Positions 38,772-48,183 of a stretch of DNA of 64,000 nucleotides are shown here, one piece after another (positions within the stretch are counted from its first letter, which is position 1; the number at the start of each line of letters is the position of its first letter). The stretch is from contig NZ_KZ679084.1 of assembly GCF_003024235.1 (NCBI RefSeq), forward strand, positions 186,001-250,000, in the 5' to 3' direction. A model generated the notes under the pieces. That model saw only the letters and a program-made list of their open reading frames with translations. It made no database searches and had not been told where the DNA came from. Source of the DNA: Arenimonas caeni. Lineage in GTDB: Bacteria > Pseudomonadota > Gammaproteobacteria > Xanthomonadales > Xanthomonadaceae. A program made the translations under genes and the position numbers.

Positions 38772-40865
38772 GTGAATTTCCGCACCCTCAAACCCCTGTC
38801 GCTGGCCCTCGCCGTCAGCGTCGCCCTTGCCGCCTGCCAAAAGGCCGAGACCCCGGCCGACACCGCCGTGGCCGAGCCGGCCAGGCCGGCCATCGACCTG
38901 GCCAGCCTCAAGACCCCGGTCAGCTCGCTGCAGGCCGCCGACCTCGACACCAGCGTCTCCGCCTGCACCGACCTCGACCAGTTCGTGAACGCCAAGTGGC
39001 TCGCCGCCAACCCGGTGCCGGCCGACCGCACCACCTGGGGCAGCTTCGAACTGCTGGCCGACCGCTCGCTCGAGATCCAGCGCGCCCTGGTCGAGAACCT
39101 CGCCGCCACCAACGCCGACACCGGCACCGCCAAGCTCATCGGCGACGTCTGGGCCACCGGCATGGACGAGGCCGGCATCGAAGCCGCCGGCCTGGCGCCG
39201 ATCCAGTCGATCCTCGATTCCATCGCCGCGCTCGACTCCGGCGACGCGGTGGCCGAGTGGCTGCGCGGCAACTACGCCAAGGGCCAGGGCTACGTGTTCG
39301 GCTTCGGCCCGAGCCCGGACTTCGCCAACTCGAGCATGAACATCGCCTACGCCGGCCAGGGCGGCCTGGGCCTGCCGGACAAGGGCTACTACTTCGACGA
39401 CCAGCACGCCGGCATCCGCGAGGCCTACGTCGCGCACGTGGCCAAGGTGCTCGAGCTGGCCGGCGCCGACGCCGCCACCGCCGCCGCGCAGGCCGCCGAG
39501 GTGATGGCCTTCGAGACCCGCCTGGCCAAGGTGTCGATGTCGAGCGAGGAGCTCTCGCGCGACGTGTCCAAGTACTACAACCCGGTGAGCCTGGCCGACG
39601 CCGACGCGATCAGCCCGAACTTCCCGTGGTCGAAGTTCTTCGACTCGCAGGGCATCGCCGCGCCGGCGATGTTCTCGCTGGCCCAGCCCGACTTCCACAA
39701 GGAAGTGAGCAGCATGCTCGCCGACGTGCCGGTCGCCACCTGGCAGGCCTACCTGCGCTACCAGGCCATCGACAGCGCCGCGCCCTTCCTGGCCAGCGCC
39801 TACGCCGAGGAGAACTTCAACTTCTACGGCCGCACCCTGCGCGGCCAGCAGGAGATGCAGCCGCGCTGGAAGCGCGTGCTCAACACCATCAATGGCCAGA
39901 TGGGCGAGGCCCTGGGCCAGGAGTACGTGCAGGTCGCGTTCTCGCCCGAGGCCAAGGAGCGCATGCAGCAGCTGGTGGGCAACCTGTCCGAAGCGCTCAA
40001 GGCCCGCATCGAGGGCCTGGAGTGGATGGGCGAGGACACCAAGGCCAAGGCGCTCGAGAAGTGGGCCGCTTTCACGCCCAAGATCGGCTACCCGGACAAG
40101 TGGCGTGACTGGAGCGGCCTGCAGACCGGCCGCGACAGCTACGTGGCCAACCTGATGGCCGCCAACGAGTTCAACTACCGCTTCAACCTGGCCAAGATCG
40201 GCCAGCCGGTCGACAAGACCGAGTGGCAGATGAGCCCGCAGACGGTCAACGCCTACTACAACCCGCTGGCCAACGAGATCGTCTTCCCGGCCGCCATCCT
40301 GCAGCCGCCCTTCTTCGACCTGCAGGCCGACGACGCGCTCAACTACGGCGGCATCGGCGCGGTGATCGGCCACGAGATGATCCACGGCTACGACGACCAG
40401 GGCAGCCGCTTCGGTGCCTCGGGCAACTTCGAGAACTGGTGGTCCGACAAGGACAAGGCCGGCTTCGAGGAGCGCACCGGCAAGCTGGTGGCACAGTTCG
40501 ACGAGTACGTCGCCATCGACGACCTGCACGTCAACGGCAAGCTGACGCTGGGCGAGAACATCGCCGACCTCGGCGGCCTGGCCGTGGCCTACGACGCCCT
40601 GCAGCGTGAGCTGGCCACCAAGAAGGTGGGCGAGATCGACGGCTACACCCAGGACCAGCGCTTCTTCATGAACTGGGCCACCGTCTGGCGCCGCAACTTC
40701 AAGCCCGAGGAGCTGAAGGTGCGCCTGCAGACCGACCCGCACGCCCCGGCGCGCTTCCGCGCGATCGGCGCGCCCTCGAACCTGCCGACCTTCGCCGCCG
40801 CCTTCGGCTGCCAGGCCGGCGACCCGATGGTGCGCCCGGCCGACAAGCAGGTCGCCATCTGGTGA
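38772..40865 (+). CDS. M13 (neprilysin/PepO) family metallopeptidase, lipoprotein
   Basis: 697 residues from a GTG start with GGAG 7 nt upstream. Lipobox LAAC at about 20-23. The zinc and catalytic motif HEMIH (His534) and Glu595 in GENIADLGG fall at exactly the same residue numbers as in the preceding gene. The two proteins share long identical blocks such as KWLAANPVPADRTTWG, so they arose by tandem duplication. Predicted periplasmic endopeptidase anchored by lipid. The substrate is unknown. It is followed by a terminator and by a third, degenerate copy. Confidence 0.94.
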   Translation: MNFRTLKPLSLALAVSVALAACQKAETPADTAVAEPARPAIDLASLKTPVSSLQAADLDTSVSACTDLDQFVNAKWLAANPVPADRTTWGSFELLADRSLEIQRALVENLAATNADTGTAKLIGDVWATGMDEAGIEAAGLAPIQSILDSIAALDSGDAVAEWLRGNYAKGQGYVFGFGPSPDFANSSMNIAYAGQGGLGLPDKGYYFDDQHAGIREAYVAHVAKVLELAGADAATAAAQAAEVMAFETRLAKVSMSSEELSRDVSKYYNPVSLADADAISPNFPWSKFFDSQGIAAPAMFSLAQPDFHKEVSSMLADVPVATWQAYLRYQAIDSAAPFLASAYAEENFNFYGRTLRGQQEMQPRWKRVLNTINGQMGEALGQEYVQVAFSPEAKERMQQLVGNLSEALKARIEGLEWMGEDTKAKALEKWAAFTPKIGYPDKWRDWSGLQTGRDSYVANLMAANEFNYRFNLAKIGQPVDKTEWQMSPQTVNAYYNPLANEIVFPAAILQPPFFDLQADDALNYGGIGAVIGHEMIHGYDDQGSRFGASGNFENWWSDKDKAGFEERTGKLVAQFDEYVAIDDLHVNGKLTLGENIADLGGLAVAYDALQRELATKKVGEIDGYTQDQRFFMNWATVWRRNFKPEELKVRLQTDPHAPARFRAIGAPSNLPTFAAAFGCQAGDPMVRPADKQVAIW

Positions 40866-40891: not shown

Positions 40892-40924
40892 GACGGCCCG
40901 GGACCTCCCGGGCCGTCTTTTCTT
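40892..40924 (+). terminator. Rho-independent terminator after the second M13 gene
   Basis: An 11-bp perfect GC stem (GACGGCCCGGG / CCCGGGCCGTC), loop ACCT, followed by TTTTCTT. It begins 27 nt after the stop codon and separates the second from the third M13 gene, which therefore needs its own promoter. Confidence 0.9.
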
Positions 40925-40952
40925 GGGAGCCACCCCGCCCCGGCGGTAGAAT
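40923..40952 (+). promoter_or_regulatory. Sigma-70-like promoter of the third M13 gene
   Basis: TTGGGA (40923-40928), 18-bp spacer, TAGAAT (40947-40952). A Shine-Dalgarno GAGGAG sits about 7 nt ahead of the ATG at 40978. It directly follows the terminator T-run. Confidence 0.55.
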
Positions 40953-40977: not shown

Positions 40978-42870
40978 ATGTCCCTGCGCACCGCCCCCCT
41001 GTTTGCCGCCCTCCTGCTCAGCCTGGCCGCCGCCCCCGCCGCCGCCCAGCGGGCGCCCGCCAAACCGGCCGCCTGCGTCGACTTCTACGCCCATATCAAC
41101 CACGACTGGCTGGCCGCGAACCCGCTGCCGGCCGGCCGCACCGCCTTCAGCCGCTGGGACGAGCTGACCGCCCTGGGCCTGGCCCAGCGCAACCAGGTGC
41201 TGGGCGCGACCACCGCGCCCGAGGGCGCCACCGTCTCCCTGCACCTGGCCCAGCTGTTCGCCTCGGCCCAGGACGAGGCCGGCATCGAGGCCAATGGCCT
41301 CAAGTCGCTGGCGCCGCTGTTCGAAGTGATCGAGGCCATCCGCCGCAAGAAGGACATCGCCCCCGCCATCGCCCGCCTGCACGCCCTGGGCATGCCGGTG
41401 CTGGTGGACGTGCAGGTGCTGCGCGACGACAAGGGCGAGCCGTACGCCCAGCTCGGCGCCGGCGGCCTGGGCCTGCCCGACGCCGGCTTCTACACCGGCG
41501 GCGAACCCGAACTGGCCGCGGTGCGCACCCAGTACAAGGCCGCGCTGGCCGAGTGGCTGCGCCACGGCGGCGTCGCCAGCCGCGACGTGGCCGCGCAGGC
41601 CGAGGGCGCCTGGCAGTTCGAGCTGATCCTGGCCAACGCCACCGCCGCCGGCACGCCCTTCCAGGTGATGAAGATCGAGGACGCCGCCAAGGTGGCCGGC
41701 GCGCTGGAGATCCAGGGCCTGCTGGCCGCGCACGGCCTGAAGGCCAGCCAGGTGGCGATGACCGGCCCGGGCTTCTTCCGCGCCATCGACCAGATGATCA
41801 ACCGCAACAAGCCCGAGCAGTGGCGCGCCTACCTGCGCGCCCAGGTGCTGCGCGAGATGGCGCCCACGCTCGGCAAGTCGCTGCACGACCCCTGGGTGCA
41901 GCTCTACGACGTGACCCTGGGTGGCCAGGCCGAACCCACCCCGCGCGCGGTGCGGGCGCGCCAGGTGCTCGAGGCGCGCGTGCCGGGCTTCCTGGACGCG
42001 GCCTACACCGAACGTTTCCTGCCGGTGCCGCGCCAGCGCCGGGCCCAGGAGATCGCCGCGCAGGTGCGCGCCGCCGCCGGCGCCGCCATCGACCGCGCGC
42101 CCTGGCTCAGCGCCGCCGGCAAGGCCGGTGCCCGCCAGCGCCTGGACGCGATGACGATCCAGGTGGGCCTCGACGCCCCCGCCAACCTGTTCGACGACCT
42201 GGTCTTCAAGCGCGACGACCTGGCCGGCAACGTGCTGGCCCTGCGCCGCTGGCTGATGAAGTACTCGCTGCCGCGCGCGCGCTACGCCTGGCCGGCGGAG
42301 CAATGGCAGCCCCTGGTGGCCTGGATGCCCGGGGAAAACCGCCTGGTGGTGACCTCGGCCACGCTGCAGCCGCCGGTGATCGGCGACGCCGCCGACGCCG
42401 GCGACTACGGCAGCTTCGGCGGCCTGCTGGCCCAGCAGATGATGCTGGCCTTCCAGGCCTGGGACGGCGCCGACGCCACGGCCTGGAACCAGCGCGCCGC
42501 GCCGCTGGTCCCGCAATACAACGCCTACTCCGCCACCGGCGGCGCTACCCGCGTCAACGGCACCCGCACCCTCGCCCAGAACCAGGCCGACCTGGCCGGG
42601 CTGGAGATCGCCTGGCAGGCCCTGGCCGCAGGCGGCGAACCGAACCAGGCGCAGGCCCAGGCCTTCTTCGCCGGCTGGGCCGGGCTGTGGGCGCGCCAGG
42701 ACCAGGCCCAGGCCCTGGCCGACGCGCAGGCCAGCACCGACCACGCGCCGGCGCGCTGGCGCGTGAATGGCCCGCTGGCCAACCTGCCCGCCTTCGGCAA
42801 GGCCCACGCCTGCCCGGCCCGCGCCGCGATGCAGCGCGCGGCCAAGGACCAGGTGGCGTTCTGGCGCTGA
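40978..42870 (+). CDS. Catalytically dead M13-family peptidase homologue, secreted
   Basis: 630 residues with a cleavable signal peptide (ending AAAPAAAQ, about 24) and no lipobox. It shares the M13 framework: CVDFYAHINHDWLAANPLPAGR, LGLPDAGFYTGG and ATLQPPVIG. The active site is gone: HE-M-x-H of the paralogues reads Q486-Q-M-M-L490, and the GENIAD glutamate is Q534 in AQNQADLAG. It therefore lacks all three zinc ligands and the catalytic Glu, yet the frame is open over its length and the C-terminal aromatic remains (VAFWR). It may bind peptides or regulate the neighbouring enzymes. The stop overlaps rapA by 1 nt. Confidence 0.9.
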   Translation: MSLRTAPLFAALLLSLAAAPAAAQRAPAKPAACVDFYAHINHDWLAANPLPAGRTAFSRWDELTALGLAQRNQVLGATTAPEGATVSLHLAQLFASAQDEAGIEANGLKSLAPLFEVIEAIRRKKDIAPAIARLHALGMPVLVDVQVLRDDKGEPYAQLGAGGLGLPDAGFYTGGEPELAAVRTQYKAALAEWLRHGGVASRDVAAQAEGAWQFELILANATAAGTPFQVMKIEDAAKVAGALEIQGLLAAHGLKASQVAMTGPGFFRAIDQMINRNKPEQWRAYLRAQVLREMAPTLGKSLHDPWVQLYDVTLGGQAEPTPRAVRARQVLEARVPGFLDAAYTERFLPVPRQRRAQEIAAQVRAAAGAAIDRAPWLSAAGKAGARQRLDAMTIQVGLDAPANLFDDLVFKRDDLAGNVLALRRWLMKYSLPRARYAWPAEQWQPLVAWMPGENRLVVTSATLQPPVIGDAADAGDYGSFGGLLAQQMMLAFQAWDGADATAWNQRAAPLVPQYNAYSATGGATRVNGTRTLAQNQADLAGLEIAWQALAAGGEPNQAQAQAFFAGWAGLWARQDQAQALADAQASTDHAPARWRVNGPLANLPAFGKAHACPARAAMQRAAKDQVAFWR

Positions 42871-45719
42871 TGGACAAGCTCTTCGCCCCCGGACAACGCT
42901 GGTTCTCGAGCGCCGAACCCGAACTCGGCCTGGGCACGGTGCTGCGCCTGGCCGGACGCCAGGTGCAGATCGTCTTCACTGGCTCGGGCGTGGTGCGCAT
43001 GTACGCGCTGGGCTCGGCGCCGCTGCTGCGGGCGGTGTTCCGCCCCGGCGAGCGGGTGCGCGTCGGCGGCCACGACCTCGAGGTCGCGCAGGTCGAGGCG
43101 CGCGGCGCGCTGGTGCACTACCTGTGCGGCGAACACTGGCACGCCGAGGGCGAGCTCGATGCCGAACAGCCGGTGTCGCAGGCCGACTCGCGCCTGCTCT
43201 CGGGCCGGGTCGATCGCAACGACCAGTTCGAGTTCCGGGTCGAAAGCCTGCGCCGCCGCGCCGAGGCGCGCGCGCACCCGGGCTGGGGCGTGCTGGGCGC
43301 GCGCATCGACCTGGTGCCGCATCAGCTGCAGGTGGCCGAGGCCGCCGCCGCGCGCCGGCCGCCGCGCCTGCTGCTGGCCGACGAGGTCGGCCTGGGCAAG
43401 ACCATCGAAGCCTGCCTGGTCACCGCCCAGGCGCTGGCCTCGGGCCGCGCGCGCCGCGTGCTGGTGCTGGTGCCCGAGAGCCTGGTCAACCAGTGGTTCG
43501 TCGAACTGCTGCGCCGCTTCAACCTTGCCTTCGCCATCTACGACGAGGAGCGCTGCGAGTCGATCGAGCTCACCGAGCCGCGGGCCAATCCCTTCGAGGA
43601 CGAGCAGTGCGTCATCGCCTCGGTGGACTGGCTGGCCAGCCACGAAAAGCGCGCCCGCCAGGCACTCGAGGCCGGCTGGGACCTGCTGCTGGTGGACGAG
43701 GCGCACCACCTGGTGTGGACGCCGGAGTTCACCAGCCCCGGCTATGCCCTGGTCGAAGCGCTGTCGGCGCGCACGCCGGGCCTGCTGCTGCTGACCGCGA
43801 CGCCGGAACAGCTGGGCCTGGGCGGCCACTTCGCGCGCCTGCGCCTGCTCGACCCGGCCCGCTACACGGATCTTGAAGCCTTCCGCGCCGAGACCCGCGG
43901 CTACCTCGCCCTCTCGGGCCTGGCCGGCCGCCTGCTCGACGGCGAGGCCCTGACCACCGGCGACATGCAGCCGCTGGCGGCGCTGTTCCCCGGCGATGAC
44001 GAGCACCTGGCCCAGCGCCTGGGCCGCATCGCCAACGGCGACGCCGCCGAGCGCGATGCGCTGCTGGCCGACCTGGTCGACCGCCACGGCACCGGCCGGG
44101 TGATGGTGCGCAACCGTCGCGCCGCGGTCGGTGGCTTCCCGGAACGCATCCCGCACGTCACCACCCTGCCCGCGCCGGAGGACCCGACCGTGCTCGGCCG
44201 TCTGCGCGCCGAGTTCGCCCACGACGTCGGCGACACCGACGACGAGCCGGAGCACGACTTCACGCGCGACCCGCGCATGGACTGGCTGCTCGAAACGCTC
44301 GAGGCCGTGGCGCCGGCCAAGGTGCTGCTGCTGTGCCGCTCGCGCGCCAAGGTGCAGGCCATCGAGGAAGCCCTGCGCCTGCGCAGCGGCCTGCAGGTGG
44401 CGCGTTTCCACGAAGACATGAACCTGCTCCAGCGCGACCGCAACGCCGCCTACTTCGCCGACCCGGAGGGCGCGCGCCTGCTGGTGTCGAGCGAGATCGG
44501 CGCCGAAGGCCGCAACTTCCAGTTCGCCCAGCACCTGCTGCTGTGGGACCTGCCGCTGCACCCGGACATGCTCGAGCAGCGCATCGGCCGGCTCGACCGC
44601 ATCGGCCAGCAGGGCGACGTGCACCTGCACGCCGCCGCCGTCGCCGGCAGCGCGCAGGAAGTGCTGCAGCGCTGGCTGCACGAGGGCCTGGACGCCTTCC
44701 GCCAGGTGCTGCCCGACGGCCGCGAGCTGCTGCGCAGCTTCGGCGCCGAGCTGCTGGACCTGGCCGCGCAGGATGCCGACGCGCGCGAGCCGGCCTTCAC
44801 CGGGCTGCTTGAACGCAGCCGCACGAAACACGCGGAACTCTCGCGCCTGATCGCCGAGGGCCGCGACCGCCTGCTCGAACTTGGCAGCCGCGGCCTGGGC
44901 GAAGCCGACGCGCTGCGCCGCGCCCTGGCCGAGGACGACGCCCACGCGGCGCTCGACGACTTCCCGCTGCGCCTGCTGGAAAGCTTCGGCGTGCACAACG
45001 AACCGCTGGGCCCGAACACCTGGGTGCTCGACCCCGAGCACCTGACCGTGGACGGCTTCGAAGAGCTGCGCCAGGGCCCGCGCGCCTGCACCACCGACCG
45101 CGCCACCGCGCTCGCGCGCGACGACCTGCTCTACCTGCGCCCGGACCACCCGCTGGTGCTGTCGGCGCTCGACCTGCTGGTCTCGGGCGAATCAGGCAAC
45201 GCCGCCTTCCTGGTGGACGACGCGCTGCCGCCGCGCACCGTGGTGCTCGAGGCCGTGAACGTGATCGAGTGCGTGGCCGAGCGCCGGCTCGACATCGAGC
45301 GCTGGCTGCCGCCGGCGCCGCTGTCGGTGGCGGTGGACACGCGCCTGCAGCCGCGCCCGGACTTCGCGCCCGGCGAGCGCGCGCGCCATCGCGCCGGCGA
45401 CCGCGTGTTCGACCTCGGCCCGCAGCGCAAGGTGCTGGCGGCGCTGGTGCCGCCGATGCTCGAACGCGCGAGGGAAGCCGCGCAGACGGCGGCGCAGGCG
45501 CGCATCGAGGCCGCGCTGGCCGCGGCGGCGGCGTCCTTCGATGCCGAGCTGGCGCGCCTGCGCGCGCTGGCGCGGGTCAACCCGGCGGTTCGCCCGGCGG
45601 AGATCGCCGGGCTCGAAGCCGAACGCGAGGCCGTGCTGGCCGCCCTGCCCACCGCGCGTCCGCGCCTGGACAGCCTGCGACTGGTCGCCAGCCCCGACTT
45701 CCTGCAGCTGCGCCGCTGA
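42870..45719 (+). CDS. rapA: RNA polymerase-associated ATP-dependent helicase RapA
   Basis: 949 residues, typical length. Swi2/Snf2-type ATPase that recycles stalled or post-termination RNA polymerase. N-terminal Tudor-like domains (1-110), helicase core with Walker A DEVGLGKTIEA (about 170), the Walker B variant DEAHH (about 275), motif VLLLCRSRAKVQAIE and LEQRIGRLDRIGQQGDVHLH (motif VI) around 575. The C-terminal RapA domain follows. The ATG shares one base with the stop of the M13 homologue, so it is translationally coupled to it. Confidence 0.96.
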   Translation: MDKLFAPGQRWFSSAEPELGLGTVLRLAGRQVQIVFTGSGVVRMYALGSAPLLRAVFRPGERVRVGGHDLEVAQVEARGALVHYLCGEHWHAEGELDAEQPVSQADSRLLSGRVDRNDQFEFRVESLRRRAEARAHPGWGVLGARIDLVPHQLQVAEAAAARRPPRLLLADEVGLGKTIEACLVTAQALASGRARRVLVLVPESLVNQWFVELLRRFNLAFAIYDEERCESIELTEPRANPFEDEQCVIASVDWLASHEKRARQALEAGWDLLLVDEAHHLVWTPEFTSPGYALVEALSARTPGLLLLTATPEQLGLGGHFARLRLLDPARYTDLEAFRAETRGYLALSGLAGRLLDGEALTTGDMQPLAALFPGDDEHLAQRLGRIANGDAAERDALLADLVDRHGTGRVMVRNRRAAVGGFPERIPHVTTLPAPEDPTVLGRLRAEFAHDVGDTDDEPEHDFTRDPRMDWLLETLEAVAPAKVLLLCRSRAKVQAIEEALRLRSGLQVARFHEDMNLLQRDRNAAYFADPEGARLLVSSEIGAEGRNFQFAQHLLLWDLPLHPDMLEQRIGRLDRIGQQGDVHLHAAAVAGSAQEVLQRWLHEGLDAFRQVLPDGRELLRSFGAELLDLAAQDADAREPAFTGLLERSRTKHAELSRLIAEGRDRLLELGSRGLGEADALRRALAEDDAHAALDDFPLRLLESFGVHNEPLGPNTWVLDPEHLTVDGFEELRQGPRACTTDRATALARDDLLYLRPDHPLVLSALDLLVSGESGNAAFLVDDALPPRTVVLEAVNVIECVAERRLDIERWLPPAPLSVAVDTRLQPRPDFAPGERARHRAGDRVFDLGPQRKVLAALVPPMLERAREAAQTAAQARIEAALAAAAASFDAELARLRALARVNPAVRPAEIAGLEAEREAVLAALPTARPRLDSLRLVASPDFLQLRR

Positions 45720-46658: not shown

Positions 46659-47318
46659 TCAGCGCACCAGCCGCGGGCCGCGCGGCCGGAACGGCGGCTG
46701 GCCGCGCCAGTAGCGGATCATCAGCCAGCCGAACAGCATGCCGCCCAGGTGCGCGAAGTGCGCCACGCCCGAGGCGGTGTTGAACACGCCCATCAGCAGC
46801 TCGATGGCGCCGAAGACGATGACGAAGGTGCGCGCCTTCATCGGGATCGGCGGGAACAGCAGCATGACCTTGCGGTTCGGGAACAGCATGCCGTAGGCCA
46901 GCAGCAGGCCGAAGATGCCGCCCGAGGCGCCCACGGTCGGGTAGACGCCCTGGCCGGTGATGCCGCTGGTGACGACGATCAGCTGGATCAAGCCGGCGCC
47001 GGCGACGCAGGCGAGGAAGTAGCCGAGGAAACGACGCGAGCCCCAGGCCTGCTCGAGCGAGCCGCCGAACATGAAGATCGCCAGGCCGTTGAAGAACAGG
47101 TGGCCGAAGCTGCCATGCAGCGCGCCATAGGTGAGGATCTGCCAGGGCAGGAAGCCGATCGTGAAGGGCAGGCCGTCGGGCCCGGTGCCGATGACGTGCT
47201 CGCCCAGCGGCCAGAGCGCGAAATAGAGGATGGCGATTTCCGGCGCGAGCATCTGCGCCAGGTAGGCCACCACCAGTGCGATCAGCAGCGCCTTGGTGAC
47301 CGGGGGAAGTGCGTACAT
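46659..47318 (-). CDS. Rhomboid family intramembrane serine protease
   Basis: 219 residues and six hydrophobic segments. The catalytic dyad is Ser in VGASGGIFGLLLAYG and His in AHFAHLGGMLFGW. The oxyanion Asn/His pair is in HGSFGHLFFNGLAIF, and the L1 loop includes the WxR-like WGSRRFLGYF. Rhomboids cut transmembrane helices near helix-breaking residues, in quality control or signalling. No substrate is suggested by neighbours. Confidence 0.92.
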   Translation of the reverse strand: MYALPPVTKALLIALVVAYLAQMLAPEIAILYFALWPLGEHVIGTGPDGLPFTIGFLPWQILTYGALHGSFGHLFFNGLAIFMFGGSLEQAWGSRRFLGYFLACVAGAGLIQLIVVTSGITGQGVYPTVGASGGIFGLLLAYGMLFPNRKVMLLFPPIPMKARTFVIVFGAIELLMGVFNTASGVAHFAHLGGMLFGWLMIRYWRGQPPFRPRGPRLVR

Positions 47319-47775: not shown

Positions 47776-48183
47776 ATGCAGAACTTCGAACAGATCCGCA
47801 GCCACCTGCAGGGCAAATACAAGCTCACCGCCAGCGAGCCCTACCTGGTGTGCGTGCAGCTCTCGCTCGACCAGGGCCGGCGGCACCAGAGCATCTTCCT
47901 GTCGGAGATGATGGGCGAGGACGGGCGCGGCTACCTGCGCGTGAGCACGGTGATCGCGCCGATGACCGGCATCGACGCCCGGCGCATGCTGGCCTTCAAC
48001 TGGCAGAGCCCGGTGGGCTACCTGGCCATCGGCGAACTCGACGGCGTGCCCTGGCTGCAGCTGTGCGAGAACCGCCCCTACGACTGCGTCGTGGCCGCCG
48101 AGATCGACCGCCTCGTGCTCGAGATCGGTGGCCTCGGCGACCAGATGGAACGCATGCTCTCGGCCGGCGGCGACCTGCTCTGA
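47776..48183 (+). CDS. Uncharacterised 15-kDa protein
   Basis: 135 residues from ATG 47776; an earlier in-frame ATG at 47764 adds MHSD. No signal peptide or membrane segment. The pattern of an N-terminal helix (MQNFEQIRSHLQGKYKL), five or so strands and a long C-terminal helix (AAEIDRLVLEIGGLGDQMERML) resembles the YbjN/type III secretion chaperone-like fold. That is an impression, not an identification. It converges with pit, 7 nt away. Confidence 0.6.
   Translation: MQNFEQIRSHLQGKYKLTASEPYLVCVQLSLDQGRRHQSIFLSEMMGEDGRGYLRVSTVIAPMTGIDARRMLAFNWQSPVGYLAIGELDGVPWLQLCENRPYDCVVAAEIDRLVLEIGGLGDQMERMLSAGGDLL

Follow-up and report, generated by a model that had tools for sequence, protein, structure and literature searches.

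Organisation of the locus

The window analysed here, a stretch of 64,000 nucleotides of contig NZ_KZ679084.1 from Arenimonas caeni, carries three M13 homologues in tandem on the forward strand, designated P1, P2 and Q. A genome search with Q returned just these three, in this order (E ≤ 0.001). P1 (36303..38399) and P2 (38772..40865, directly 5′ of Q) were identified by Pfam and alignment as intact M13 lipoprotein peptidases, containing HEMLH and HEMIH, respectively, along with GENIAD and VNAYY in both. A LAAC lipobox is visible by eye in each of them. The residue-for-residue agreement between the two paralogues that had been noted in a sequence-only reading of this DNA was found again, with His534 and Glu595 coinciding when P2 is read from its GTG start codon at 38772.

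Q (40978..42870, forward strand) reads from ATG 40978 to TGA 42870 and encodes a 630-residue M13 pseudopeptidase with an export signal. Both M13 Pfam domains, PF05649 (E = 2.9e-54) and PF01431 (E = 9.8e-24), span nearly the whole protein, and their scores of 185.4 and 84.6 bits, against curated cut-offs of 32 and 24.5, respectively, place it in the family by homology. Residues 34–629 match solved M13 structures at the sequence level. The GC content by codon position is 0.76/0.52/0.97, compared with 0.98 at the third position in P1 and P2, in line with the normal codon use first described for the 630-codon open frame. The protein begins with a signal peptide of about 24 residues (40978..41049, forward strand) which, by eye and by pattern, is of the cleavable type and has no lipobox Cys; its end, again judged by eye, is AAAQ.

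A terminator-like hairpin with a T tract, located by scan and fold, lies between P2 and Q (40892..40926, forward strand). The scan expects 0.6 such sites by chance, so that one site is near chance level, and the fold of the hairpin itself (40892–40917) has a z-score of −2.45, with 6 of 200 shuffles equally good. The promoter proposed earlier for Q was recovered as a promoter-like site at 40923..40952 (forward strand, 9/12 matches), one such site being found before Q against a mean of 0.0 in shuffled sequences. On the other side, the start of rapA (42870..45719, forward strand) overlaps the stop codon of Q (TGATG), the coupling already recognised from the sequence, and in all 13 Arenimonas loci compared rapA starts at most 7 bases from the last sense codon of Q. 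This looks like shared transcription rather than shared function. Two further genes served as syntenic markers: a rhomboid gene convergent to the locus (46659..47318, reverse strand), which is a family-wide marker, and a small conserved gene (47776..48183, forward strand) for a protein beginning with MQNFEQIRSHL, for which a scan of a slightly longer in-frame stretch returned no Pfam match.

The zinc site of Q

In an alignment with P1, P2 and the orthologs from the genus, HExxH is replaced in Q by QQMML (residues 486–490, 42433..42447, forward strand) and GENxAD by AQNQAD (residues 533–538, 42574..42591, forward strand). Gln534 thereby stands where the third zinc ligand, a Glu, belongs, while Asp538 is kept, and the place of the VNAxY substrate motif is occupied by PLVAWM. 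In neprilysin numbering, Q has Gln in place of His583, Glu584 and Glu646 and Leu in place of His587, and the description of a full-length third M13 gene in which all four zinc-binding and catalytic positions are changed is thus accurate; the equivalents of Asp650 and Arg717 are still present. The roles of H583, E584, H587, E646 and N542 follow the available portion of PMC2259306. With HExxH, the Glu of GENxAD and VNAxY all absent, Q does not have the sequence of an active M13 peptidase; being a complete M13 protein apart from its substituted zinc ligands and general base, it has that of a pseudopeptidase. A structure prediction from six input sequences (from the window and from locus L004) reached a mean pLDDT of 48.9, which is too poor to read the pocket.

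Conservation and selection within Arenimonas

An ortholog of Q was found in 18 of the 27 Arenimonas genomes, three of the orthologs (G005, G012 and G023) being cut or split at contig ends, and no internal stops were found in the matches to Q in the 27 genomes searched. A gene restricted to this strain, with frameshifted relatives, had been named as the observation that would speak for simple decay, and it is not what the genus contains. Q is absent from nine genomes, of which three are less than 90% complete. The locus was fetched for six of the nine, and in all six a P2-type M13 gene is the immediate neighbour of rapA or of a rapA-like piece, Q being cleanly missing. In three Q-less genomes of 2.0–2.2 Mb (L101, L103 and L104), an ORF scan showed nothing beyond short rapA-like frames downstream of the M13 gene. 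At another locus (L062:3628-5779, genome G002) P1 is apparently broken across two frames and Q is intact.

Pairwise Nei-Gojobori dN/dS values, computed on stop-to-stop frames and therefore including some codons upstream of the start, are 0.19, 0.24, 0.24, 0.28 and 0.39 for five Arenimonas Q pairs and 0.17–0.62 for five P1/P2 pairs. Outside Arenimonas, six pairs from the lineage described below gave 0.05–0.32 and three pairs of active genes 0.23–0.47. Both Gln of the QQ pair are invariant in the 16 aligned Arenimonas orthologs, as are N535, A537 and D538. Position 490 (the former His587) is L, M, I or T, position 534 is Q in 14 rows and M in two, and Asp590 is missing from all 16, two of which have gaps there. 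With QQ in 16/16 orthologs, the observation is beyond chance. The alignment has 74 invariant columns out of 628, and adjacent pairs of columns are invariant in 19 of 625 cases, which puts QQ within the top 3%; part of this invariance inside the genus is common ancestry. The orthologs, the dN/dS values and the fixed QQ together indicate retention by selection across species.

A family-wide lineage of third M13 genes

Matches to Q at E ≤ 1e-70 were obtained in 255 of 297 genomes of the family, covering 44 of 54 genera; the 297 are a draw from a larger group, and not all of the 255 matched genomes entered a tree. The best score of a P1/P2-type protein against Q within the genus is 3.9e-64, above this limit. 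In a tree of 133 proteins built without the active-site columns, 63 rows, Q included, are separated by a fork from the other 70. The 63 are precisely the rows without VNAYY, and the 70 all have it. This tree is the proper test of the motif, as the 79 lineage rows used in the later trees were chosen by the absence of VNA[YS]Y/INAYY, so that the loss of N542 in 79/79 is no test. The 16 Arenimonas rows form a single clade with 100% SH-aLRT support, and the QQ signature, for which a search in related genomes had been suggested, thus occurs in 16/16 rows of a separate clade. Two trees were made with the 79 lineage rows, a quick one and a careful one without L059; the quick tree flagged long branches meeting (L059 and L064). 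Two stem proteins that still have VNAYY, L086 and L088, were placed beside the lineage in these trees. L086 has an intact zinc site, and L088 (L088:6783-8795, genome G066) has lost two zinc ligands (HELMR, GSNIAD). Rows dropped from the alignments were L016 (a fragment), the wrong-frame row of L062, a fragment from L136, and L112, L113, L119, L121, L122 and L132, which repeat genes already included. Also unused were short loci whose genes recur in longer ones, L098 and L106, and the Q genes of G023 (split over contigs) and G012 (a fragment).

The surroundings of the lineage genes agree with the trees. An active-type M13 gene (VNA[YS]Y) lies close 5′ on the same strand at 46 of the 51 lineage loci with surroundings; the remaining five comprise one at a contig start and four with sequence there. 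When the two stem loci are added, giving 53, the convergent rhomboid gene is found within 8 kb downstream at 48. The MQNFEQIRSHL gene is nearby at 31 of the 53, the fetched sequence often ending before reaching its place, and rapA is present at 16 of the 53 (13 in Arenimonas, L064 and the two stem loci). By these synteny counts, Q therefore corresponds in position to the third M13 gene found across the Lysobacteraceae and is its ortholog in Arenimonas, the gene being old and fast-evolving. The picture of Q as a lately inactivated member of a local array is accordingly rejected, since trees and synteny rule out the recent death of a copy of P1 or P2 and show that Q represents, at this locus, a lineage spread through the family.

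Outside the family, 151 genomes of the order, drawn from a larger group, were searched at E ≤ 1e-105. One genome labelled as belonging to family f11 (G358) holds a lineage gene. This gene, at L130, is 58% identical to the family query, and represents either a transfer or a misassigned contig. The remaining matches in other families reach at most 418 bits, and all eight loci fetched from among them have VNA[YS]Y and HExxH. Several of the matches within the family carry stops in this search; their open frames are of at least 675 aa, and the query included codons before the start.

The cleavable-type signal seen in Q is also a trait of the lineage. The N-terminus is present in 78 of the 79 rows and, by eye, consists of a cleavable-type signal and, after it, a stretch that is basic or rich in A/P; a search for the lipobox pattern was negative in 76 of these 78. 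The cleaved type of signal proposed for Q is hence shared by the lineage and not particular to this gene. In L048 and L065 (genus group g29) LAAC occurs within the hydrophobic stretch, with an end of the AGAQ type behind it, and these two could be lipoproteins.

Active-site states and the number of losses

The zinc triad, meaning all three ligands, is intact in 16 of the 79 lineage rows and lacking in 63. Individually, H583 is kept in 51 rows, E584 in 55, H587 in 25, E646 in 46 and H711 in 50, and D650 and R717 in all 79. Among the 70 non-lineage rows, H583, E584, H587, E646 and D650 are all present in 69, the exception being L088. Counted by parsimony without regain, the losses inside the lineage number nine on the resolved tree and five when branches below 95 are collapsed; collapsing those below 80 gives seven on the quick tree or five on the careful one (without L059). 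Adding the stem row L088 contributes one more loss, bringing the quick-tree counts to 10/8/6 (resolved/80/95). Both the omission of L059 and L064 from the careful tree and the acceptance of Asp at E646 give 8/4/4, and with regain allowed the minimum is six changes. The count depends on weak branches. The collapsed values lump together dead clades that lost different ligands, some having H587R with E646 kept and others retaining both His but carrying E646A or E646I, and are for this reason low bounds if there was no regain. In L078 and L047 (genus group g14), which belong to a distant clade, H583/E584 are also QQ and E646 is Gln, with His587 kept, a parallel change.

When the 79 lineage rows were compared with 75 active rows at a conservation level of 95%, 32 columns share one residue in both sets and two are fixed for different residues; this level is confined to the active set in 108 columns and to the lineage in 34, a few of the 34 narrowly so. 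These 34 include Arg455, Asn597 and His135 and are spread all along the chain. Constraint in the lineage thus appears to have shifted rather than vanished.

What the pseudopeptidase may do

Q is very probably unable to bind the catalytic zinc or to cleave peptides in the manner of M13 enzymes, and is very probably retained for another function. The claim of a maintained pseudoenzyme is borne out by the stop-free matches across the genus, by dN/dS values well below 1 and by the fixation of QQ in a clade of its own. That the other function is binding may be suggested with less assurance. Our best reading, to which we give an even chance, is that Q is a periplasmic or extracellular M13 clamshell that binds and does not cut, in a lineage that became independent of cleavage early. 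According to this proposal, M13 homologues with export signals would have given up their dependence on peptide-bond cleavage early on. The two-lobed shell, held by a salt bridge between Asp650 and Arg717, would hold a peptide or exported polypeptide uncut in the periplasm or outside the cell, and what is held would be either sequestered from the active M13 enzymes or presented. Where cutting was worthless or harmful, the zinc ligands would have been lost repeatedly and through different substitutions. Homology, synteny, the cleavable-type N-terminus, the clade-wide absence of VNAYY, the repeated loss of the triad, purifying selection and the fixed Gln-Gln are the sequence features in its favour, while the Asn that contacts the substrate is absent from the lineage, a counterpoint to binding. 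The retention of the D650/R717 pair without the zinc ligands points to a structural role, and the pair may be just a structural salt bridge, saying nothing about peptide binding. The 16 members with an intact triad may still be enzymes, cutting being of value in some genera. In Arenimonas the site is both emptied and charge-neutral (His, Glu and Glu all being Gln), and the loop after it is deleted; as the emptied site is itself conserved, the Gln site is probably involved in binding or helps to hold the two lobes. We suggest more tentatively, as a possibility, that a non-catalytic function preceded zinc loss, that five to nine separate deaths followed, and that in Arenimonas the site was rebuilt into a fixed Gln pocket binding a specific peptide or protein.

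Q could instead be an envelope chaperone or scaffold whose shell makes protein-protein contacts beyond the old cleft, the cleft being irrelevant. The high variability of the former ligand positions in the other genera and the distribution of the 34 lineage-only conserved columns along the whole chain speak for such a role, but the old site is constrained in Arenimonas, given the invariance of QQ, N535, A537 and D538 in 16/16 orthologs, and we regard a scaffold as rather unlikely. Somewhat less probable still, and in our view doubtful, is a regulatory partner that forms a mixed complex with P1 or P2, or competes with them for substrate, as inhibitor or non-catalytic subunit. M16B offers a precedent, with a two-gene operon containing an inactive subunit (PMC11266112, available text). 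The active-type M13 gene close 5′ of 46 of 51 lineage loci fits this idea, and the partial distance correlation between lineage and M13 gene, with the rhomboid held fixed, is 0.38 (0.24 outside Arenimonas). The plain correlation, however, is 0.53, against 0.56 between lineage and rhomboid (0.36 against 0.47 outside Arenimonas), P2 runs directly into rapA or a rapA-like piece, with no Q between, in all six loci fetched from the nine Q-less genomes, and at four lineage loci with upstream sequence no M13 gene was found there. Active M13 enzymes are, moreover, generally self-sufficient. Inhibition of the neighbouring enzymes, one of the roles first suggested for Q, has little support. That Q is still an enzyme using another metal, or none, is very improbable: the QQ/N-x-A-D cluster is fixed in the Arenimonas clade, but the same positions vary in sister genera, and inspection of Q revealed no second set of catalytic residues. 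Decay into a pseudogene, which the absence of Q from nine of 27 genomes (three of them less than 90% complete) and branches that on inspection of the tree are longer than those of P1/P2 might suggest, is rejected by the stop-free genus matches, dN/dS of 0.19–0.39 in five pairs and the coupling to rapA (within 7 bases at 13/13 loci).

Relation to known pseudoenzymes

A binding pseudopeptidase, as preferred here for Q, would have its nearest precedent in kind in Drosophila Nepl15, and in evolutionary pattern in Ssd1/Dis3L2. Nepl15 (PMC7822871) shares with Q the loss of the zinc ligands from an M13 homologue, the change of the general base Glu to Gln, the conservation of the substitutions across a genus and the presence of active paralogues. 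It is described there as likely secreted and predicted inactive, with peptide sequestration proposed by modelling. Nepl15 is, however, an animal protein with a role in lipid and glycogen storage shown by knockout (PMC7822871), whereas Q is bacterial and belongs to a family-wide lineage with several separate losses. Drosophila Gone early likewise has all key M13 active-site positions substituted, but it is a type II membrane protein of germ cells with other substitutions (PMC11266112, available text). The fungal Ssd1/Dis3L2 pseudonucleases lost their active site at least four separate times within one lineage while other regions were conserved, and led to the same inference as the Q lineage, namely that a non-catalytic function came first; they differ in being eukaryotic and of the RNase II fold (PMC8097288, available text).

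The bacterial enzymes PepS, PepO and Zmp1 have the HExxH/Glu zinc site that Q lacks (for PepS, available text of PMC4701951), and the NCBIfam PepO model matches Q far below its own cut-off. In PepS, a salt bridge reportedly joins Asp596 and Arg660, the counterparts of D650 and R717, and mutants showed little activity (H654A) or none (D538N, D596A, R660K) (PMC4701951, same portion). The M13 example given in a 2024 review of pseudometallopeptidases is Gone early, and its available text has no bacterial M13 case (PMC11266112). In a survey of 111 M13 proteins, thirty have changed key positions, and all of these, in the portion available, are from invertebrates except rat Kell (PMC2259306). No description of a bacterial M13 pseudopeptidase was found in the open-licence literature searched. 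Pseudoenzymes, and M13 pseudopeptidases among them, are already known; what is new, within the reach of this search, is a lineage that is bacterial, spans a family and lost its site repeatedly.

If correct, no lineage of bacterial M13 pseudopeptidases would have been described before this one, and its sites would form a natural series running from intact to completely replaced. A graded set exists at one syntenic locus, from the stem protein L086 with intact site and VNAYY, through members with intact zinc site and no VNAYY and those with one ligand gone, to those with all replaced, and the order of events in the birth of a pseudoenzyme is therefore testable. For the family itself, with 63 of the 79 aligned lineage proteins lacking the triad, many proteins of the Lysobacteraceae probably are not peptidases despite matching the M13 models.
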